A stretch of DNA of 38,962 bases from a virus, in IMG/VR virus record IMGVR_UViG_3300046000_006906, positions 1-38,962 of that record. One strand, written 5' to 3'. The notes beneath the pieces were generated by a model. It was not told the origin of the DNA, searched no databases, and saw only the letters and a list, made by a program, of their open reading frames with translations. A program made the translations under genes and the position numbers. The first letter of the stretch is position 1. Each line of letters opens with the position of its first letter. Below are positions 5,634-38,962 of this stretch, one piece after another.

Positions 5634-5681
5634 CACCTACGTCAGAAACGGTCGCACCGATTCCGTCGTGACGATTATCCG

Positions 5682-5727
5682 TTACCAGCGGTGATTTTCC
5701 TCTGGACATAGCCGTTACTCCGCGTAA
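5682..5727. promoter_or_regulatory. Operator pair before the rightward operon
   Basis: TTACCAGCGGTGA (5682-5694) and TTACTCCGCGTAA (5715-5727) match the sites at 5178-5224 (TYAC at the left end, GTnA at the right) and begin 33 bp apart, the same spacing. The second lies between and overlaps the -35 and -10 boxes of the rightward promoter. A GATTC (GANTC-type) site is at 5659-5663 just upstream. Confidence 0.72.
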
Positions 5728-5730
5728 TAT
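5703..5730 (+). promoter_or_regulatory. Rightward early promoter
   Basis: TGGACA (5703-5708), 16 bases, then TAATAT (5725-5730) is a good sigma70-type promoter. It precedes the AGGGAG ribosome site and ATG 5757. The operator 5715-5727 covers the spacer and the start of the -10 box, so repressor binding should silence the whole rightward operon in the lysogen. Confidence 0.65.
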
Positions 5731-5756
5731 CTCCCTACGAACAAGGGAGACGCCCG

Positions 5757-6047
5757 ATGGCTACCGCATTTCAAAAACTGGAATCCGCCCGCGCCGATTA
5801 CGCCCGTGAGGGTGGCGACGGTTTCGGGGACTACGACTGGACCGGCGCGAACGACTACGCCGCCGAGGGCTATGCGCTGGCCGAGGCCGCGTTTGATATG
5901 CCCGCCGAGGACCGTGACGACTGGATTGACGGTCAGACCTACGCCTTCCCCGGTTCGGCCCGGTATCTGGTGGCGGTCGCCGCTGACTACCGGCTGGCCG
6001 AGTTGGTCGCCGCCGATGCCTATCCGTTCCGTGCGGAGGCCGCGTGA
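5757..6047 (+). CDS. Hypothetical acidic early protein, 96 aa
   Basis: First gene after the repressible rightward promoter, with AGGGAG before the ATG. Very acidic and rich in Ala, Asp and Tyr (DGFGDYDWTGANDYAAEGYA, AEDRDDWIDGQTYAFPG). Unrecognised. Acidic, small, immediate-early phage proteins often bind and inhibit host proteins or mimic DNA; this is only a possibility here. Confidence 0.78.
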   Translation: MATAFQKLESARADYAREGGDGFGDYDWTGANDYAAEGYALAEAAFDMPAEDRDDWIDGQTYAFPGSARYLVAVAADYRLAELVAADAYPFRAEAA

Positions 6048-6286
6048 TGGGTGCGGTCAAGAACCACTTTCACGACGAGATTTGCGCGACGGCTGACGGC
6101 TACGACCAGACCTATCGCGGCTATCGCATCTATCCAGCCTGCTTCTCACCCGCGCCCCAGTTCGATTGGGAGTTTCACCACGAGGACTACGACGGCGCTC
6201 CCGACAGCAACGACAATCGCTGCGGACGCGGCGCGTCTGCCGCCGACTGCATCGATCAGATTAACGATCTGGAGGACGACGCATGA
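6047..6286 (+). CDS. Hypothetical acidic protein, 79 aa
   Basis: ATG 6047 overlaps the preceding TGA; a GTG three bases earlier is an alternative. Rich in aromatic and acidic residues (GYDQTYRGYRIYPACF, FDWEFHHEDYDGAPDSNDN) and ending DQINDLEDDA. The YRGYRIY-P pattern is seen in small phage proteins without known role. Confidence 0.72.
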   Translation: MGAVKNHFHDEICATADGYDQTYRGYRIYPACFSPAPQFDWEFHHEDYDGAPDSNDNRCGRGASAADCIDQINDLEDDA

Positions 6287-6528
6287 CCGCCCCGATGTAC
6301 CTCGCCAGCGGCTCCGTGATCTTCGTCCGCGAGCATCAGCCGATCACGCTGCAAAAGGCCCGGCTGATCGAGAACATCCACCGGATGAACGCGGCCTACC
6401 AACTCAGCCAGAACGACGAACGCTCGCTCACCGCGCGTCTCGGTCTGGCGAAGATCGAAACAGCCCTCGCTGACGAAATGGCAGCTGCCATTCGTGAGGC
6501 GACCGAACCGCAGGAGATCGCAGCATGA
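6283..6528 (+). CDS. Hypothetical protein, 81 aa
   Basis: ATGA overlaps at both ends place it firmly in the operon. Mostly helical after a short beta-like N-terminus (MYLASGSVIFV); KARLIENIHRMNAAYQLSQ and ARLGLAKIETALADEMAAAI are amphipathic. No recognised domain. Confidence 0.72.
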   Translation: MTAPMYLASGSVIFVREHQPITLQKARLIENIHRMNAAYQLSQNDERSLTARLGLAKIETALADEMAAAIREATEPQEIAA

Positions 6529-6737: not shown

Positions 6738-6991
6738 CGCCCGCCACTCAATCACCCACCGTCAGGACCTCCGCGACCGCTAAAAACGGCGCGGAGGGGA
6801 CGGTCCACGCCTACGCCTCGAACGGCGACCTCTTCATCCTAGACGGTGGCGTTTACTGGCGCTTCGACAGCCTCTCCGCGTGGAGCCGCTGGTTTGACGC
6901 CGTCCAATCCTCAATCCCCTCGACCCAGGAACGCGCCCGGCAAATCCGCGCCGCGATGGACGAGGCTTTCCCGCAGGAACAAGCAGCATGA
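6734..6991 (+). CDS. Hypothetical protein, 85 aa
   Basis: GTG start overlapping the previous TGA. The centre EGTVHAYASNGDLFILDGGVYWRFDSLSAW reads as a small beta-sheet, followed by helices (STQERARQIRAAMDEAF). Unrecognised. It ends in a 4-bp overlap with the Rad52-type gene, so may be a recombination accessory protein. Confidence 0.7.
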   Translation: MTPATQSPTVRTSATAKNGAEGTVHAYASNGDLFILDGGVYWRFDSLSAWSRWFDAVQSSIPSTQERARQIRAAMDEAFPQEQAA

Positions 6992-7644
6992 CGTTCTCAA
7001 CCGATCAACACGAAATGCTGACAGCCCCGCTCGACAAGGCGCGCGTCGCCACCCGCGAGCAAGGCGGCAAGACCCTGTCCTATATCGAGGCGTGGCACGC
7101 CATCGCGGAGGCCAACCGCATCTTTGGCTTCGGCCAGTGGGACCGCGAGACGGTGGAACTGCGCCAGCTTGGCGAGCCGCGCGTGACGCAGGACAAATAC
7201 GGCAAGGACCAGATGCGTGTCGGCTATTCCGCCCGCGTCCGCATCACCGTCAGGGCAGGGGACAGCGTCATCGTCCGCGAGGGCTGCGGCTTCGGCTCCG
7301 GCATCGACAAGGACACGGACCAGGCTCACGAAAGCGCACTGAAGGAAGCCGAGTCCGACGCCATGAAGCGGGCGCTGATGACGTTCGGCAATCCCTTCGG
7401 TCTGGCCCTCTACGACAAGACGCAGGCCAACGTCGCCGCCGTGGTTTCCGCCGTCGTCCAGACCGCGACCGCCTCCCTCGCCATGTGCCGGGATGAAGCC
7501 GACCTGAAGGAGTGGACGGCCAGCAACGGCGCGATGATTGACGGCCTCTCCGAAGCCGAAAAGCAGGGCGTCCGCAAAGCCTACGCCGCCCGGCAGACGG
7601 CTATCAAATCCGCCTCGAACCCCTTTGAACAGAAAGCCGCCTAG
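6988..7644 (+). CDS. Rad52/Rad22-family single-strand annealing protein
   Basis: Phage annealing protein (218 aa) that pairs complementary single strands for recombination and replication restart. The conserved Rad52 core is visible: LSYIEAWHAIAEANRIFGFGQWDRE (about residues 31-56), YSARVRITV, then GCGFG...AHESALKEAESDAMKRALMTFGNPFGLALYDK (about 98-152). The C-terminal tail is Ala-rich and variable. It sits directly before an SSB gene and two genes before NinB, the usual phage recombination cluster. No 5'-3' exonuclease partner is recognised nearby. Confidence 0.9.
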   Translation: MTFSTDQHEMLTAPLDKARVATREQGGKTLSYIEAWHAIAEANRIFGFGQWDRETVELRQLGEPRVTQDKYGKDQMRVGYSARVRITVRAGDSVIVREGCGFGSGIDKDTDQAHESALKEAESDAMKRALMTFGNPFGLALYDKTQANVAAVVSAVVQTATASLAMCRDEADLKEWTASNGAMIDGLSEAEKQGVRKAYAARQTAIKSASNPFEQKAA

Positions 7645-8034
7645 ATGAAAAACCTGACGATTGCCGGTCGCCTGACCAAAGACGCCACCACCCGCGAGGC
7701 CGGGTCCGACAAGGTGACCGGGTTCTCCGTCGCCGTGGATGACCGGCAGGGCAAGGAGAAGTCTACCCTGTTCTTCGACTGCTCCATGTGGGGCAAGCGC
7801 GGCGAAACGCTGGCGCAGTATCTCGTCAAAGGCTCGCAAGTCACCGTGTCGGGCGACCTTGGAACGCGGGAGTACGAGGGCAAGACGTACCTCACCCTTC
7901 GCGTTGCCGACGTGTCTTTGCAAGGCGGGAAAGCGGCTGCGAGCGGCGGCGATGACGGCGCATCTGGCGTTGCGTTCAAGCAGGCTGACGGGTCGGTCGG
8001 ACGTTACGACCTCTCCGACGATATTCCCTTTTAG
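7645..8034 (+). CDS. ssb: Single-stranded DNA-binding protein
   Basis: OB-fold SSB of 129 aa: LTIAGRLTKDATTRE at the start, VTGFSVAVDD, FFDCSMWGKRGETLAQYL and GSQVTVSGDLGTREYEGK match bacterial SSB strand by strand. The last residues DLSDDIPF form the acidic, Phe-terminated tail that recruits partner proteins, so host repair enzymes may be recruited to phage DNA. It starts directly after the annealing gene, without overlap. Confidence 0.95.
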   Translation: MKNLTIAGRLTKDATTREAGSDKVTGFSVAVDDRQGKEKSTLFFDCSMWGKRGETLAQYLVKGSQVTVSGDLGTREYEGKTYLTLRVADVSLQGGKAAASGGDDGASGVAFKQADGSVGRYDLSDDIPF

Positions 8035-8045
8035 GAGCGCGGACG

Positions 8046-8780
8046 ATGACCGCCGAACCCATCCAACTCCGCAACTCGACGCCCTTCGACCTGATCGTTG
8101 AGAGCATCGAAGACCTGATCGGTGAAGCCCGCAACTACGCGGACGGCTCCCCTGTGGAAACGCAGGGGCAAGCCGACGACGTGTCCCGCATCATCGACGG
8201 CCTGAACCTGAACGCCAAGGCGCTGGACGCTGAACGGGTTGTGGAGAAGGCTCCGCTCGATAAGCAGATCGCGGCAATCCAGGACCGCTACAACATCTGG
8301 ATTGCCGACCGGAAGAACAAGACGCCGGGCAAGGTCTTCAAGGCCGTGGACGCGCTCAAGGCGTCCCTGCAACCGTATCTCGCCAAGCTGGACGCGGAGA
8401 AGCGCGAGGCCGAACGGGTCGCCCGTGAAGCCGCCGACAAGGCCGCTCGCGACGCAGCCGAGGCCATGCGCGCCGCTGCCGCCAACGATCTGCAAGCCCG
8501 CGAGGATGCCGAGGCCCTGATTGCCGACGCGGAAGCCGCTCAGAGGCTCGCCAAGGCCGCAGCCGGGGACAAGGCCCACGCTACGGGCGGAAGCCGTGCA
8601 ATGGGCCTCCGCAGCGTCTGGAAGGCCACCATGACGGACAGCCACGCCGCCGCCGCCCACTACTGGCGCACGAACCCCGACGCCTTCAGGGCCCTGCTGC
8701 AAAAGCTGGCTGACGACGACGTGCGGGCGGGCAAGCGAAGCGTACCAGGGTTTGACGTTATCGAGGAGCGCCGACTGTGA
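8046..8780 (+). CDS. Coiled-coil protein of the recombination cluster, 244 aa
   Basis: After an N-terminal segment (TPFDLIVESIEDLIGEARNYADG) the protein contains a long charged helix (about residues 110-180, AEKREAERVAREAADKAARD and on), then a conserved-looking end: GLRSVWKATMTD, AAAHYWRTNPDAFRALLQKLA, DDVRAGKRSVPGF. Proteins with this C-terminal pattern lie beside phage annealing proteins in other alphaproteobacterial phages, but I know of no established function. GGAG precedes the ATG. Confidence 0.78.
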   Translation: MTAEPIQLRNSTPFDLIVESIEDLIGEARNYADGSPVETQGQADDVSRIIDGLNLNAKALDAERVVEKAPLDKQIAAIQDRYNIWIADRKNKTPGKVFKAVDALKASLQPYLAKLDAEKREAERVAREAADKAARDAAEAMRAAAANDLQAREDAEALIADAEAAQRLAKAAAGDKAHATGGSRAMGLRSVWKATMTDSHAAAAHYWRTNPDAFRALLQKLADDDVRAGKRSVPGFDVIEERRL

Positions 8781-9190
8781 CCGACCGTCCGTGTGTCATC
8801 ATTCGCTCGCCGCAAGACCGAGGCCGCGCCCTGCGATGGGTCGAGCAAGCCCCGTTCGGAACTGTCGTTGAGTTTAAGCAGAAGGGCCGGAGCGGGGACC
8901 AGAACTCCGCGATGTGGTCAATCCTCACGCAGATTAACAAGCAGCGTCCGGTCCACAACGGCGTGAAGATGAGTGCAGTTCTCTGGAAGGCCGTGTTTAT
9001 GCAAGCCCTCGGGGCCGAGCTGGTGATGTTGCCGACCTTGGAAGGCGACGGCCTGTTCCCGTTCGGACATCGCTCGTCAAAACTGACCGTGTCGCAGATG
9101 TCGGACCTGATTGAACTTCTTCTGGCCTGGTCGGCTCAGCAGGGCCTCGTCATTGAGCATTTCGACGGCGATGAGAGGGCTGCCGCATGA
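8777..9190 (+). CDS. ninB: NinB-like recombination protein
   Basis: NinB (lambda Orf) is a recombination mediator that binds single-stranded DNA and SSB. The 137-aa protein shows the family pattern: RALRWVEQAPFGTVVEFKQ, then RSGDQNSAMWSILTQI (about residues 38-53), WKAVFMQALG, and a C-terminal FPFGHRSSKLTVSQMSDLIE. GTG start overlapping the previous TGA. Lies four bases into the next HNH gene; together with annealing protein and SSB it completes the recombination set. Confidence 0.88.
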   Translation: MTDRPCVIIRSPQDRGRALRWVEQAPFGTVVEFKQKGRSGDQNSAMWSILTQINKQRPVHNGVKMSAVLWKAVFMQALGAELVMLPTLEGDGLFPFGHRSSKLTVSQMSDLIELLLAWSAQQGLVIEHFDGDERAAA

Positions 9191-9546
9191 GCCGGGCTGT
9201 CCCCGAATGGGTTGGAGCAACCCCGGACTCGGCCATTCCGGCGCGGGTCAAGCTGCGGGTTTTCGAGGCCCACGGCGGCATCTGCTACCTGTCCAAGCGC
9301 AAGATCAGGGCGGGTGAGCCTTGGGACTGCGACCACGTCATCGCGATCATCAATGGCGGCGAGAACCGTGAGGCGAACCTCGCTCCGGCTCTCCGCGACA
9401 AGCACAAGATCAAGACGAAGGCCGACGTTGCGGAGAAGTCCCTAACGGCCCGGCGCAAGGTCAAGAACCTGGGGCTGAAGGCTCCGTCACGCCTGACACA
9501 TCCGACGCTGAAGCGCGGCTTCGACGGCAAGGTGAGGCCGCGATGA
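9187..9546 (+). CDS. HNH endonuclease, 119 aa
   Basis: Metal-dependent nuclease fold: IPARVKLRVFEAHGGICYL at residues 17-35, CDHVIAIINGGENREANLAPALRDKHKIK at about 48-76, carrying the His, Asn and His of the HNH motif. The C-terminus is strongly basic. In recombination clusters such proteins can act as nuclease partners; freestanding homing activity is the alternative. Overlaps ninB by 4 bp. Confidence 0.85.
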   Translation: MSRAVPEWVGATPDSAIPARVKLRVFEAHGGICYLSKRKIRAGEPWDCDHVIAIINGGENREANLAPALRDKHKIKTKADVAEKSLTARRKVKNLGLKAPSRLTHPTLKRGFDGKVRPR

Positions 9547-9941
9547 ACGCCGGACCTGACACCACAGACATTGCCGCACACGCGGTGGGTATCGGCGCAG
9601 CCGATGAACCAAAAGGACAAGCAATGACCAACCCTGATGAACTGGAAAGGCTGGCGAGGGCTGCGATTGCCGTTCACGGCGCGGAGTGGGTCGAGTTTTT
9701 CAACGAGTGGGAGGAAACGTCCGGTGCGTTCGGTCGTGCAGCCAATCCCGCGACCATCCTCGATCTCCTCGCAGCCAACCGGAAGATGCGGGAGGCCATC
9801 GAACGGCTGATGGATGCCGAGTTCGCGAAGGACTGGCGAACGTGGTCGGACGAGCGCGCGCGGCTTCTTCTCGGCGTTGGGCCTCGCTTCGACGCCTTCA
9901 TGGAAGCCCGCTCAGCCCTCTCTACGAAGGAGACAACCTAA
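9543..9941 (+). CDS. Hypothetical protein, 132 aa (or 105 aa)
   Basis: Two starts are possible: ATG 9543, overlapping the HNH stop, and ATG 9624, which has AGGA at a good spacing and begins TNPDELERLARAAIAVHGAEW. The second gives the more protein-like sequence; the first 27 residues are low in structure. Helical throughout. The gene ends exactly where the 43-bp repeat and the DNA modification cassette begin. Confidence 0.72.
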   Translation: MNAGPDTTDIAAHAVGIGAADEPKGQAMTNPDELERLARAAIAVHGAEWVEFFNEWEETSGAFGRAANPATILDLLAANRKMREAIERLMDAEFAKDWRTWSDERARLLLGVGPRFDAFMEARSALSTKETT

Positions 9942-9970
9942 TGTCTGATGCAGTTATGGTTCCGAGGGAG
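9928..9970. repeat. 43-bp direct repeat, copy 1 (left edge of queD-dpdA cassette)
   Basis: Identical to 11152-11194. It contains the ribosome site GGAGACAACCTA, the ATG (9941) and the first ten codons, encoding MSDAVMVPRE. Sequences diverge on both sides. The two copies bracket exactly the QueD-like and DpdA-like genes. Confidence 0.97.
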
Positions 9971-10372
9971 GTCCGGGAGGGATCGCTCACCAGTTTCACC
10001 AGCTCGTCGTTTGACGCTAGCCATCGCGGGCCGTTTGCCAATGAGATTCACGGCCACACTTGGTTCGTGGAAATCGGCTGGAAAGGTCCGGCGCATGGGC
10101 CGCGCGTGAATGCCATCGAGATGAAGGCGAAACTGGACGCCTGCCTTGACCAGTGGGACCACAAGGTTCTGGACGACATTATTGAGCCGACCAACGAGGG
10201 CGTTGCGCAAGCCGTTGGTGAACAGATTGCCGGGCTGTCCGAGGTGACGGTCTGGCGCAAGGGGCGTGTCCCGTGTCGGGCGCGTTGGATCAACAACAAT
10301 GAAAGGGGTCAGACGAACGCCCGAGCGCATAGACAAGAGATGGAAACTGATCGGGATGGGGGGTCGCAATGA
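9941..10372 (+). CDS. QueD-like 6-pyruvoyl/6-carboxytetrahydropterin synthase family protein
   Basis: QueD makes the pterin precursor of 7-deazaguanine (preQ0) bases. After ten residues copied from a neighbouring gene (MSDAVMVPRE), this 143-aa protein has the T-fold pattern FTSSSFDASHRG (first zinc His), then IHGHTWFVEIGW (two more zinc His), WDHKVLDDI (Asp-His pair of the active site) and PTNEGVA (pterin-binding Glu). The Cys normally four residues before HGH is Ala here (ANEIHGH), so the usual reaction is doubtful. The basic C-terminal tail (RGQTNARAHRQEME) is unusual. Its stop overlaps the start of the DpdA-like gene, which strongly supports a role in DNA deazaguanylation. No FolE, QueE or QueC gene is visible. 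Confidence 0.8.
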   Translation: MSDAVMVPREVREGSLTSFTSSSFDASHRGPFANEIHGHTWFVEIGWKGPAHGPRVNAIEMKAKLDACLDQWDHKVLDDIIEPTNEGVAQAVGEQIAGLSEVTVWRKGRVPCRARWINNNERGQTNARAHRQEMETDRDGGSQ

Positions 10373-11152
10373 CGGCTCCCCATGTCCTGAGCTTTTATCC
10401 CGGCCTGCACCAGCCGCACGATGCGGTTCACTTCGACCGCGCCTGTATTAGCATCCACCGGCTTGAGACGCGCCGGAAGCCCGTCCCGTGCCTTGATGTA
10501 ATGGTGGACAGCGGAGCCTTCACCAAGCTCGCCAAGCACGGCTGTTATCCCGAGCCGGTTGAGGTCTATGCGCGACAACTGCACCGCCTTTGGACCCAGG
10601 GCGTGGTCAACATCACCATTGCCGCCGCGCAAGACTATATGTGCGAGCCGTTCATGCTGGAAAAGACCGGCCTGACCGTTCTGGACCACCAGCGTCTGAC
10701 TATTGAGCGTTACGATGCTCTGGTCGAGGCGCTGGATGACTTGTTCCCCGGTGGCGTGCCGTTTGAGGTCATGCCCGTCCTTCAGGGCTTCCTGATCTCA
10801 GACTATCTCCGGCACATCGAAATGTACGGCGACCGCCTGACGCCCGGAATGTGGGTTGGCGTTGGCTCCGTCTGTAAGCGCCAAGGAAACGCAGCGGTCA
10901 TTGAAGACCTGTTGCTGGCGATTAAGGGGGCGCGGTCGGACCTCCGGCTGCATGGCTTTCGGCGTGAAACTGACAGCCCTTCAAAGCCCTATCGTGCGCC
11001 GCCTTCTGTTCAGCGCCGACAGTATGGCGTGGTCATTTGCAGCCCGGAAAGCCGGACGAGACTCAAACGACTGGCGCGAGGCCAAGGCCTTCGAGTTGCG
11101 CGCCCTAACCCCATCCAAAGAGCCGGAGCAGTTGAGACTGTTCGCGGCATGA
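10369..11152 (+). CDS. dpdA: DpdA-like DNA transglycosylase, split by a +1 frameshift
   Basis: DpdA proteins resemble tRNA-guanine transglycosylase and exchange guanine in DNA for a 7-deazaguanine. Frame one (10369-10959) gives VMVDSGAFTKLAKHG, IAAAQDYMCEPFM, FEVMPVLQGFLISDYLRH, MWVGVGSVCKRQGN and LRLHGF. The family sequence then continues in the next frame from 10961: GVKLTAL, then LLFSADSMAWSFAARKAGRDSNDW, carrying the SADS Asp expected in the active site, to the stop at 11150-11152. The break is at TTT-C (10957-10960); dropping one base restores a 260-aa protein. Without it, frame one continues as unrelated sequence to 11172. An ATG at 10952 opens the second frame but lacks a ribosome site. 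Sequencing error, mutation or +1 frameshifting are all possible. Confidence 0.8.
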
Positions 11153-11194
11153 GGAGACAACCTAATGTCTGATGCAGTTATGGTTCCGAGGGAG
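11152..11194. repeat. 43-bp direct repeat, copy 2 (right edge of queD-dpdA cassette)
   Basis: Identical to 9928-9970, spanning the ribosome site, ATG (11165) and first ten codons of the following gene. In this copy the ORF goes on as PTEAMIEAA, a very common phage sequence, so this is probably the original and the copy at 9928 the duplicate. Confidence 0.97.
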
Positions 11195-11944
11195 CCGACA
11201 GAAGCGATGATCGAGGCGGCGACCGGCTGCATGGACCCGATCATCTGCACCGAGCGATGGGATGACCCGTCTATCGACGTTCGAGAAATCTACCGCGACA
11301 TGGTCGCAGCGGCCCCAGCCCTCGCAGCTTCTACACCTGTAGGAGGTTGGGAGGACATCAGCACGGCTCCGAAGGATGGGACGCTGATCATGATCGGAGC
11401 GCCCGGCTGCGGCGTCTCGCTTGTGCGCTGGTTGGGCGGCGCTTGGATTGACGAGCAGGGATTTACGCAAGGTTCATGGCCGACCCATTGGCAACCAGCC
11501 CCTCCCCCACCCTCAGTCTCTATAGATAATGGTTCACGGCCCCAAGAGGCCGTACCCACCGAGCAAGCCGCGCCGCCGGTTTTAGCCTTGCTAGACCAGA
11601 TTTCGGCCCTCTGCACGGCGTTCAACGACCAAATCCACGACGCTGAAGACACGCTGGGGCAGATCAACCAACTGGCCTACGCCGGGATTGCGGCTTTGCG
11701 TCCTGACACCGTGAGGAAGGGCATCGGTGATCTGGCGGTGATCGACCTTCAAACGATCCGTATGTGGCTGGAAGGCTTGGCCGATTGCACCGATATGAAC
11801 GAGGTCTGTGCGGACGGCGGCGTCACTGTCGGGATGGCCTATCAGCAGGACGCGCGGGAGTTTTCAGCCCGCATCGCCCGGATGCTTCCCGCCACCCCCC
11901 AACCCGCTGACGGCTGTTCTAGCAATGAAGGAGCGGGGAAATGA
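11165..11944 (+). CDS. Hypothetical phage protein of the DUF551-like type, 259 aa
   Basis: Begins MSDAVMVPREPTEAMIEAA, a frequent opening in phages of Alphaproteobacteria. The centre WEDISTAPKDGTLIMIGAPG, GAWIDEQGF, SWPTHWQPAPPPP has the layout of DUF551-like proteins of unknown role. After a Pro/Ser-rich linker (about residues 115-135) comes a helical C-terminal part (LALLDQISALCTAFNDQIHDAEDTL, IDLQTIRMWLEGLADC). Possibly a fusion of two small proteins. It starts in the right-hand copy of the 43-bp repeat. Confidence 0.78.
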   Translation: MSDAVMVPREPTEAMIEAATGCMDPIICTERWDDPSIDVREIYRDMVAAAPALAASTPVGGWEDISTAPKDGTLIMIGAPGCGVSLVRWLGGAWIDEQGFTQGSWPTHWQPAPPPPSVSIDNGSRPQEAVPTEQAAPPVLALLDQISALCTAFNDQIHDAEDTLGQINQLAYAGIAALRPDTVRKGIGDLAVIDLQTIRMWLEGLADCTDMNEVCADGGVTVGMAYQQDAREFSARIARMLPATPQPADGCSSNEGAGK

Positions 11945-13575: not shown

Positions 13576-13769
13576 CCGCCCGCGTCGTCAGGGCGACCGA
13601 GATAAACCGCATTCTCGACGTTCTCGCGGCGCGTGGCGTCAACCCCGCCGCATTTACCGTCTTGCCCGGCGGGGCTGTTCGGTTCCACATGGCCGAACCG
13701 GCGGCTAACGACAGGTCGCCCGATCTGGAGGCGGAAGGGCGAGCATGGGACGAAGCCTTGGGCGCATGA
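13572..13769 (+). CDS. Hypothetical protein preceding the integrase, 65 aa
   Basis: GTG start, overlapping neighbours at both ends. VVRATEINRILDVLAARGVNPAAFTVLPGGAVRFHMAE reads as helices plus a short hairpin. Its place directly before the integrase would suit an excisionase, but no winged-helix or MerR-like motif is clear, so the role is left open. Confidence 0.7.
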   Translation: MTARVVRATEINRILDVLAARGVNPAAFTVLPGGAVRFHMAEPAANDRSPDLEAEGRAWDEALGA

Positions 13770-14818
13770 CCGGCTTCGACAACGTCACCCTTATGCGCGA
13801 CCGCCATGGCAAGGCTCGCTACCGCTACCGGCGCAAAGGGCAGAAGACGGTATATCTGCCGGGCAAGCCGGGTTCGCCAGAGTTTGAGGCCGCGTATCAG
13901 GAAGCAACCGCTGGCGTGACAGGGCAGATCAAGCCCGGCGCATCCCGAACCGTCCCTGGTACGATCAACGCCCTCGCCGTGGCGATCTATCAATCCGCCG
14001 AATGGGCGATGCTGGCAAAGACGACACAGGGAACCTATCGCGGAATCATTGAGCGGCTTCGCAAGGACTACGGCTCGTTCACCGTCCGCAGCCTGACGCA
14101 AGAGCGCATCCGGGTGATGCGGGACAAGCGCAAGGAGACGCCCGCCGCCGCGAACAATATGCTCAAGGTGCTGCGGTGGGCGCTGGCCTTCGCCGTTGAC
14201 CGGAACCTTCGCCCCGACAATCCATGCATCGGGATAAAGCCGCTCAAGATCGTTAGCGACGGCTTCAAGCCGTGGACCGAGGACGAGGTCGCAATCTATG
14301 AGAAGTTCTGGCCTGTAGGAACGCGCCAGAGGCTCGCGTTCGACCTTTTGCTGGGTACGGTCCAGAGGTCCGGTGATGTGCGCCAGATGGGGCGACAGCA
14401 TCGAAAGGACGGACGGCTGGACTTCCGGCAGCAAAAGACGGGAGCGGGCTTGTCGCTCCCCGTGGTCCCCGGTCTGAAAGAATCCCTCGACACGGTTGAC
14501 CAGTCACAGATGCTCTACATCGTGACGCAGTTCGGCGTTGGCTATACCGCCAAGGGCTTTGGCAACTGGTTTAACGGCTCTGCCCGAAAGGCCGGGCTAG
14601 TCGGCTGCACCGCGCACGGCCTGAGAAAAACAGGCGCTACCAGGATTGCAGACGCGGGGCACTCGGAGGCCGTCATCATGTCGTGGACCGGCCACAAGTC
14701 CGCCAAGGAGGTCCAACGCTACACCCGCGCCCGCGACCAGAAGCGGCTTGCGGATAGCGCCGTGATCGGGCCGGAAAGTGAACAGACGATGGCTAACCCC
14801 AAAACTTCCGGTGGCTAA
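13766..14818 (+). CDS. int: Tyrosine-recombinase integrase
   Basis: Integrates and excises the prophage. The chosen ATG (13766) overlaps the previous stop as ATGA; an upstream in-frame ATG (13745) is possible. The 350-aa protein has an N-terminal DNA-binding region (DRHGKARYRYRRKGQKTVYL), a core-binding domain (TYRGIIERLRKDYGSF), and the catalytic domain with Arg in TVQRSGDVRQM (near residue 200), HGLRKTGAT (near 282), TGHKSAKEVQ and the nucleophile Tyr in RYTRA (near 318). The attP core lies 44 bases beyond its stop. As last gene of the rightward operon it is under repressor control. Confidence 0.95.
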   Translation: MTGFDNVTLMRDRHGKARYRYRRKGQKTVYLPGKPGSPEFEAAYQEATAGVTGQIKPGASRTVPGTINALAVAIYQSAEWAMLAKTTQGTYRGIIERLRKDYGSFTVRSLTQERIRVMRDKRKETPAAANNMLKVLRWALAFAVDRNLRPDNPCIGIKPLKIVSDGFKPWTEDEVAIYEKFWPVGTRQRLAFDLLLGTVQRSGDVRQMGRQHRKDGRLDFRQQKTGAGLSLPVVPGLKESLDTVDQSQMLYIVTQFGVGYTAKGFGNWFNGSARKAGLVGCTAHGLRKTGATRIADAGHSEAVIMSWTGHKSAKEVQRYTRARDQKRLADSAVIGPESEQTMANPKTSGG

Positions 14819-38457: not shown

Positions 38458-38962
38458 AGTCCCACCCCCAACCTGTCACGGATTGCGCTGCAAGAAATCT
38501 CGCAATAGGTCTCAACCTCGCCGGTCGGCCCGTTGTTGTTCTTCTCGACCAGCCAATAGAGCTTCTTGCGGACCTTATCGAGCCGGGCCTTCCATTCGCC
38601 CATCGCCTCGAAGTCGGAGTCGTCTTCCGGGCGGCGGCAGTAGTATTCCGGGCGATACAGGAACATCACCAACCGGGCGTCCTGTTCGATCTCGCCAGAC
38701 CAGCGGAGGTCCGACAGGCCGGGGCGCTTGTCCTTGTTGTCGCGCTTCTCCACGTCGCGGGAAAGCTGGCACAGGGCCACCACAGGCACGTCCAGCCGCT
38801 TGGCCATTTCGGCAAGCCCACGGGAAATGTCCCCGACCTCGGCCACCTTGTTGCCCTTGCGGTCGTTGTCAGCCTTGGCGATGGTTAGGTGGTCAACGAT
38901 GATCGCGCCCGGATCAATGCCCTGACGTTGCCAGTCACGGATTGCCTTGCGGGCACAGGTCC
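38454..38962 (-). CDS. dnaB: Replicative DNA helicase DnaB, C-terminal part (cut by window edge)
   Basis: Continuation of the gene at 1-1045. From the joint onward: VAEVGDISRGLAEMAKRLDVPVVALCQLSRDVEKR (DnaB motif 3 with the QLSR sensor), RPGLSDLRWSGEIEQDARLVMFLYRPEYY (motif 4 with Arg finger region) and the end LYWLVEKNNNGPTGEVETY. Overlaps the HNH gene by 4 bp. The last three bases (38960-38962) deviate from the left-hand copy and are probably contig-end noise. Confidence 0.95.
   Translation of the reverse strand, partial: TCARKAIRDWQRQGIDPGAIIVDHLTIAKADNDRKGNKVAEVGDISRGLAEMAKRLDVPVVALCQLSRDVEKRDNKDKRPGLSDLRWSGEIEQDARLVMFLYRPEYYCRRPEDDSDFEAMGEWKARLDKVRKKLYWLVEKNNNGPTGEVETYCEISCSAIRDRLGVGL
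38835..38959. repeat. Terminal direct repeat, right copy
   Basis: Same 125 bases as 2-126. Removing one copy gives a unit of about 38,833 bp and a continuous dnaB of 1,425 nt. Confidence 0.93.

Follow-up and report, generated by a model that had tools for sequence, protein, structure and literature searches.

How could a phage gene that changes reading frame part-way along yield a complete DNA-modifying enzyme, and how did it come to lie, with a partner gene, between two exact repeats? DpdA is a transglycosylase that swaps guanine in DNA for a 7-deazaguanine. The insertion of 7-deazaguanines into phage DNA is established for relatives of DpdA (PMC6884629). In the phage examined here, dpdA and a queD-like gene form a cassette at the start of an early gene. 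The explanation we consider probable, from sequence comparison, is that this dpdA is decoded by programmed +1 frameshifting, which is probably assisted by a hairpin in the mRNA.

The window, which is the whole stretch of DNA that was analysed (38,962 nucleotides of the IMG/VR record IMGVR_UViG_3300046000_006906), carries a 125-bp direct repeat at both ends (2-126 and 38835-38959). Judging by this repeat, the genome is probably complete, and circular or circularly permuted. The phage is of the temperate type. Its terminase and portal region gave only partial matches to named phages, mostly those of Rhizobiales, Acetobacter, and Stenotrophomonas, and no tRNA genes were found in the window. A second IMG/VR record, L002, is identical to the window over 6,386 bp, both 43-nt repeats included. 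This twin possibly comes from a related sample and may not be independent of the window, so that it provides weak replication. The features of the locus are as follows, with the strand given where it was recorded.

6988-9546: recombination block directly upstream of the repeats (recombinase/DNA repair, exonuclease, NinB/Orf, HNH nuclease)
9543-9941, plus strand: upstream early gene, weakly Ead/Ea22-like, with its stop TAA inside the left repeat
9928-9970, plus strand: left repeat, with the last codons and stop of the upstream gene, a ribosome site, ATG, and ten codons fused to the queD-like gene
9941-10372, plus strand: QueD-like (PTPS-fold) gene, by PF01242 and fold match
10369-10959, plus strand: frame-0 part of dpdA, residues 1-197, the last codon being the putative slip codon TTT
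10924-10930, plus strand: Shine-Dalgarno-like run AAGGGGG at the 5' edge of the hairpin
10932-10951, plus strand: predicted mRNA hairpin with an 8-bp core, -14.0 kcal/mol
10957-10960, plus strand: candidate +1 shift site TTT-C (TTT CGG in frame 0, TTC GGC after the slip)
10960-11172, plus strand: frame-0 extension of dpdA read without a shift, stop TGA at 11170-11172
10961-11152, plus strand: +1-frame part of dpdA, residues 198-260 and stop TGA
11152-11194, plus strand: right repeat, with a ribosome site, ATG, and ten codons of the downstream gene
11165-11944, plus strand: downstream early gene; the repeat probably derives from its N-terminal codons MSDAVMVPRE-PTEAM
13745-14818: integrase gene

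The initial annotation had described a cassette bracketed by direct repeats, and the two copies (9928-9970 and 11152-11194) do match exactly, at 43 of 43 bases; within a 39-kb sequence, such identity cannot be due to chance. The ribosome site, ATG, and ten codons (MSDAVMVPRE) that had been reported are present in both copies; the site reads AGGAG and is separated from the ATG by 8 nt. The first base of the right copy is the last base of the dpdA stop TGA. The queD-like and dpdA genes are indeed the only genes between the repeats, and they are joined by an ATGA overlap (stop TGA at 10370-10372, start ATG at 10369). However, dpdA proved not to be the single open reading frame that had been assumed.

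The change of reading frame within dpdA

The assignment of the second gene to DpdA is borne out by a match of the frame-0 part to PF23859 (98.5 bits, cut-off 27), by a match to PHROG 1279 (phrog_1279, 1.7e-56), and by a predicted fold that matches TGTs and 7ui4. A phmmer search against the PDB gave nothing useful, whereas the fold comparison did match. Frame 0 (10369-11172) covers only residues 1-197 of the DpdA family. The next part of the profile matches the +1 frame, which ends LFAA-TGA with the stop at 11150-11152, and the two parts are joined when TTTC is read as one Phe. The last 63 residues of DpdA, which include the last strand of the barrel and an invariant Asp, thus need a +1 shift.

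The shift-joined protein is predicted to form a TGT-type barrel (pLDDT 92), with its last strand at residues 215-218, and its closest folds are TGTs and the DNA preQ0 insertase DpdA 7ui4 (E 1.8e-7). The invariant Asp residues are D47, D89, and D217; the invariants G198, K200, D217, S218, and W221 all lie after the shift. Since the last strand and these five residues follow the shift, the model indicates that the unshifted product should be inactive. The window protein has the profile, the TGT-type barrel, and the invariant residues in common with phage DpdA (PF23859, PHROG 1279, 7ui4). It differs in needing a +1 frameshift, which none of the aligned homologues does besides those few that share the shift.

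The shift site was compared across 80 homologues from IMG/VR. The frame is broken in only three of them, namely the twin record, L004, and L032, in each case by +1 at an identical codon position, while about 70 other aligned DpdA homologues are in frame. The site reads GGC TTT CGG in the window and L004, GGC TTT TGG in L032, and GGN TTY GGN in the others. L004 and L032 come from other metagenomes than the window. Over the N-terminal part of DpdA, L004 is 69% and L032 57% identical to the window; over the C-terminal part, the values are 87% and 76%. There are only three distinct shifted sequences, and they are related to each other: the window, L003, L004, and L032 form one clade (support 98/95), in which L003, the nearest relative of the window DpdA, is in frame. 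Given this in-frame member inside a shifted clade, the shift would either be old and have been lost in L003, or have been gained more than once.

The sequence beyond the site also bears the mark of selection in the new frame. Between the window and L004, the downstream changes fall 10, 8, and 31 times on positions 1, 2, and 3 of the +1-frame codons (chi-square p 5e-5), and upstream, in frame 0, the numbers are 19, 16, and 60, which is the same codon-position pattern. The downstream pattern is that expected for translation in the +1 frame, and not that expected for decay or error. A scan of a genome collection for the shifted motif returned four matches, none with detectable similarity to DpdA, and a second scan, of viral sequences with a relaxed Gly codon, returned only the shifted genes that were already known. 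In a further homologue (L102, 4001-4666 and 5183-5347), a second match to the DpdA C-terminus lies about 500 nt downstream of the gene and is possibly a duplicated or interrupted C-terminus.

These comparisons fit a slip of the ribosome, in which the peptidyl-tRNA-Phe on GGC-UUU-C would move one base forward, from UUU to UUC. Re-pairing one base on is possible at both forms of the site (UUU-C to UUC, UUU-U to UUU). The full barrel with the invariant pair D217-S218 would then come from shifted ribosomes only.

A candidate stimulator and the unshifted frame

The predicted hairpin ends 2 nt before the E-site codon GGC in the window and directly adjoins this codon in L004 and L032. Its stem has 10 bp in the latter two, while one pair near the stem base is broken in the window. 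The hairpins of the three shifted sequences rank first, second, and fourth in stability among 73 distinct homologues. When the three were recoded synonymously with phage codon usage, 3, 15, and 52 of 5000 recodings were equally stable; among the unshifted homologues, 2 of 69 reached p<=0.01 in this test. Wobble conservation around the shift site (p 0.07) is suggestive only. RNA structure downstream of the site was no better than in shuffled sequences, and for this reason no downstream stimulator is proposed. The purine run at the edge of the hairpin reads GCAGGAG in L004 and AAGGGGG in L032. An unshifted homologue, L058 (around 5640-6329), has a hairpin as stable as the shifted ones at this position, which may be an element that was lost or is latent.

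Its position and stability, together with the designed precedent below, make the trio's hairpin a likely stimulator of +1 shifting. As the trio consists of related sequences, the hairpin may instead reflect shared ancestry and codon use. A designed hairpin set right against the E-site codon has been shown to promote +1 shifting in an E. coli 70S extract, and it acts like the internal Shine-Dalgarno duplex of prfB (PMC6321510). The synthetic elements and the dpdA element have in common a stable GC-rich hairpin that abuts the E-site codon and is followed by the slip codon, but the former were designed and were tested without RF2, whereas the latter is natural and lies in a phage gene. The effect of the designed hairpin needed a starved A-site, that is, no RF2 (PMC6321510), and the A-site codon of the window is the sense codon CGG, which is not rare in the phage (17 per 1000).

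The +1 frameshift of prfB, the gene for RF2, offers a second comparison. Both genes have a UU-type P-site codon for the +1 slip, a stimulator (in dpdA a candidate one) directly 5' of the E-site codon, and a purine-rich Shine-Dalgarno-like run. However, the frame-0 A-site codon is UGA in prfB and a sense codon (CGG or UGG) in the dpdA trio, the dpdA stimulator appears to be a hairpin, unlike that of prfB, and the frame-0 product of dpdA continues for 70-102 codons. In dpdA, the slip would thus probably be aided by the hairpin just 5' of the E-site codon.

Two other explanations of the frame change have to be weighed against a programmed shift. The two parts of dpdA might be made as separate polypeptides that assemble, with the C-terminal piece started internally at residue 199. 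A possible start codon is present there in all three sequences (GTG in the window and L004, TTG in L032, with an ATG as well in the window), and ahead of the hairpin lies a Shine-Dalgarno-like purine run, which on such an arrangement the hairpin would bring near the internal start. Yet codons of the GTG/TTG type are common here in unshifted homologues too, and L004 and L032 have ACG in place of the window's ATG. Furthermore, the C-terminal piece, at about 60 residues, would cover no more of a TIM barrel than its last strand and helices, and the frame changes at the exact codon where a TTT-to-TTY slip restores it; separate polypeptides are therefore considered improbable. It is very improbable that dpdA is a decayed pseudogene, or that the extra T arose by mistake in sequencing or assembly. 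One-base errors are common in assemblies, and the in-frame state of L003 could be taken in the same sense, but the same +1 offset occurs at the same codon in three separate assemblies, where just three or four T stand in a row. About 80 homologues showed no further disruption, and the +1 frame evolves as a coding sequence.

Under programmed frameshifting, translation by those ribosomes that do not shift would end where the next gene begins and give an incomplete protein; the efficiency of the shift would thus ration the DpdA enzyme. In the window, the frame-0 stop (TGA, 11170-11172) lies 2 nt beyond the ATG codon of that gene (11165-11167). In each of the three shifted sequences, frame 0 runs open from the site up to the start of the following gene, where stop and start meet as ATGA in L004 and L032 and as ATGTCTGA in the window. 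This is weak evidence alone, since 16 of 70 unshifted homologues likewise have frame 0 open beyond the DpdA stop; nevertheless, it suggests coupling to the next gene. It is tentatively proposed that a natural, hairpin-driven +1 element splits the ribosomes, the shifted ones making DpdA and terminating ahead of the next gene, the unshifted ones making a truncated protein, stopping at the next start, and feeding translation from it. In L004, the gene after dpdA (7013 onwards) resembles a DNA cytosine methyltransferase by eye (MKPKLLDLFSGIGGFSLG), and it starts at the ATGA where unshifted dpdA would stop.

The QueD-like partner and the origin of the cassette

The first gene of the cassette had been read as QueD-like, and this holds for the family and the fold, but the catalytic Cys of QueD is missing. 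The protein matches PF01242 (35 bits, cut-off 22.4), and its predicted fold matches QueD/PTPS structures; a comparison with named phage genomes gave no match at E 1e-5. The zinc histidines H28/H37/H39 and Arg106 are invariant in 12 relatives adjoining transglycosylase-like genes. Eleven of the 12 aligned members, the window included, have an HGH motif without Cys at the preceding catalytic place, while the twelfth, L043, has an HDH motif and a Cys elsewhere. The catalytic Cys is absent from the window, L003, L004, L062, and L134-L142, and in an alignment to E. coli QueD it falls in a segment that is missing from the window protein. The fold and the three zinc histidines are thus common to this family and to QueD/PTPS proteins (PF01242; 4ntk, 2dj6); the window family differs in lacking the catalytic Cys, in being paired with DpdA genes, and, by eye, in having an invariant Arg at the position of the catalytic Glu of QueD. 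Because the zinc histidines are kept and the catalytic Cys is not, the activity is unlikely to be that of QueD.

The pairing of such genes with dpdA is not confined to one family. The QueD-like gene stands beside a PHROG 1279 DpdA in the window, L003, L004, and L062. Cys-less QueD-like genes overlap or abut a PHROG 887 DpdA-like gene in L134 (508-1730), L135 (3989-4989), and L142 (3914-5013), and in L139 the neighbour belongs to PHROG 15826. As the pairing recurs with two different DpdA families, the partnership is probably functional. Cui et al. reportedly proposed in 2023 that DpdL is a phage 7-carboxy-7-deazaguanine decarboxylase. DpdL presumably acts on 7-deazaguanine before insertion by DpdA, which would fit a Cys-less QueD-like protein. 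In phiLM21 (L082, 4771-5298), a Vut_1 gene, of the queuosine-precursor transporter type, follows dpdA; this suggests that the base is imported there rather than synthesised.

It had been proposed that the pair entered as a unit and that its first gene borrowed an N-terminus from the resident gene; both proposals are supported. L003 has the same pair in another gene context, with about 70% nucleotide identity over 9987-11095 and without the MSDAVMVPRE extension, and the queD-like and dpdA genes look like a travelling unit. The L003 QueD-like protein begins MITSF, and the window protein has SLTSF after a 15-residue extension. Protein homology to L003 starts at about 9986 and nucleotide homology at 9987, 17 nt past the repeat, so that the first 15 codons of the window gene are an add-on, ten of them from the repeat. 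The motif VPREPTEAM of the downstream gene is also found in L135 and phrog_5913, and the phrog_5913 match of the downstream gene begins inside the repeat. By this comparison, the codons within the repeat originally belonged to the downstream gene, and the N-terminus of the QueD-like protein therefore looks borrowed.

The flanks, when joined in silico, restore the upstream stop and the downstream gene, as a clean removal would require. Given these clean flanks, the native repeat codons, and the point at which homology to L003 starts, an insertion with duplication of the gene start, in the direction that the initial annotation proposed, is the simplest reading. The entry of the cassette at the start of the early gene would have caused the 43-bp duplication, which would have given the QueD-like protein a borrowed ribosome site and N-terminus. 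Another route is possible, though we lean away from it: the downstream gene may have been duplicated in tandem, after which queD-dpdA took the place of the first copy's body. The early genes of the region are mosaic and Ea22-like, and L004, with the same upstream recombination genes, carries the pair directly after the HNH gene, flanked differently and lacking the repeat. Nothing left over from a duplicated gene body is found between the repeats; the final sequence predicted by this route is identical to that predicted by direct insertion.

A further explanation concerns the repeats themselves and is compatible with frameshifting. The repeats could serve as a deletion switch, through which recombination, perhaps by the phage's own upstream genes, removes the cassette in a fraction of the population. 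The 43 exact bases are 1.2 kb apart, recombinase/DNA-repair, exonuclease, and NinB/Orf genes lie at 6988-9190, and the joined flanks are clean. However, no cassette-free form was found in IMG/VR, the cassette is kept in both assemblies, and a reversal of the loss would require a new acquisition; such a switch is thus unlikely. The reversible on/off modification that had been envisaged is likewise not supported, since a direct-repeat deletion is one-way and no cassette-free relative was found in IMG/VR. Nor was any repeat-bearing relative found there except the twin; when relatives of the downstream gene were sought, only the twin and two distant contigs came up. A one-way loss of the cassette by recombination between the repeats is plausible. 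The recombination block at 6988-9546 could act on the 43-nt repeats.

Implications for phage DNA modification

To our knowledge, few cases of +1 programmed frameshifting have been confirmed in bacteria and phages. No description of frameshifting in DpdA was found in the literature searched, of which the coverage is incomplete. Both +1 programmed frameshifting and the DpdA family are known; the conserved +1 shift in dpdA with its likely hairpin appears to be new. If the explanation is correct, the hairpin beside the E site would, as far as we have found, be a new instance in nature of an element that was known from designed constructs.

For the annotation of phage genomes, shifted dpdA genes will appear in automated pipelines as a truncated protein with the wrong C-terminus. 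The association of a Cys-less QueD-like protein with two DpdA families hints at a step of DNA modification that is yet to be characterised. If frameshifting is confirmed, the dose of a restriction-evading, DNA-modifying enzyme would be under translational recoding control, and, if ribosomes are split as tentatively proposed above, the efficiency of the shift would couple the dose of DNA modification to the next gene.
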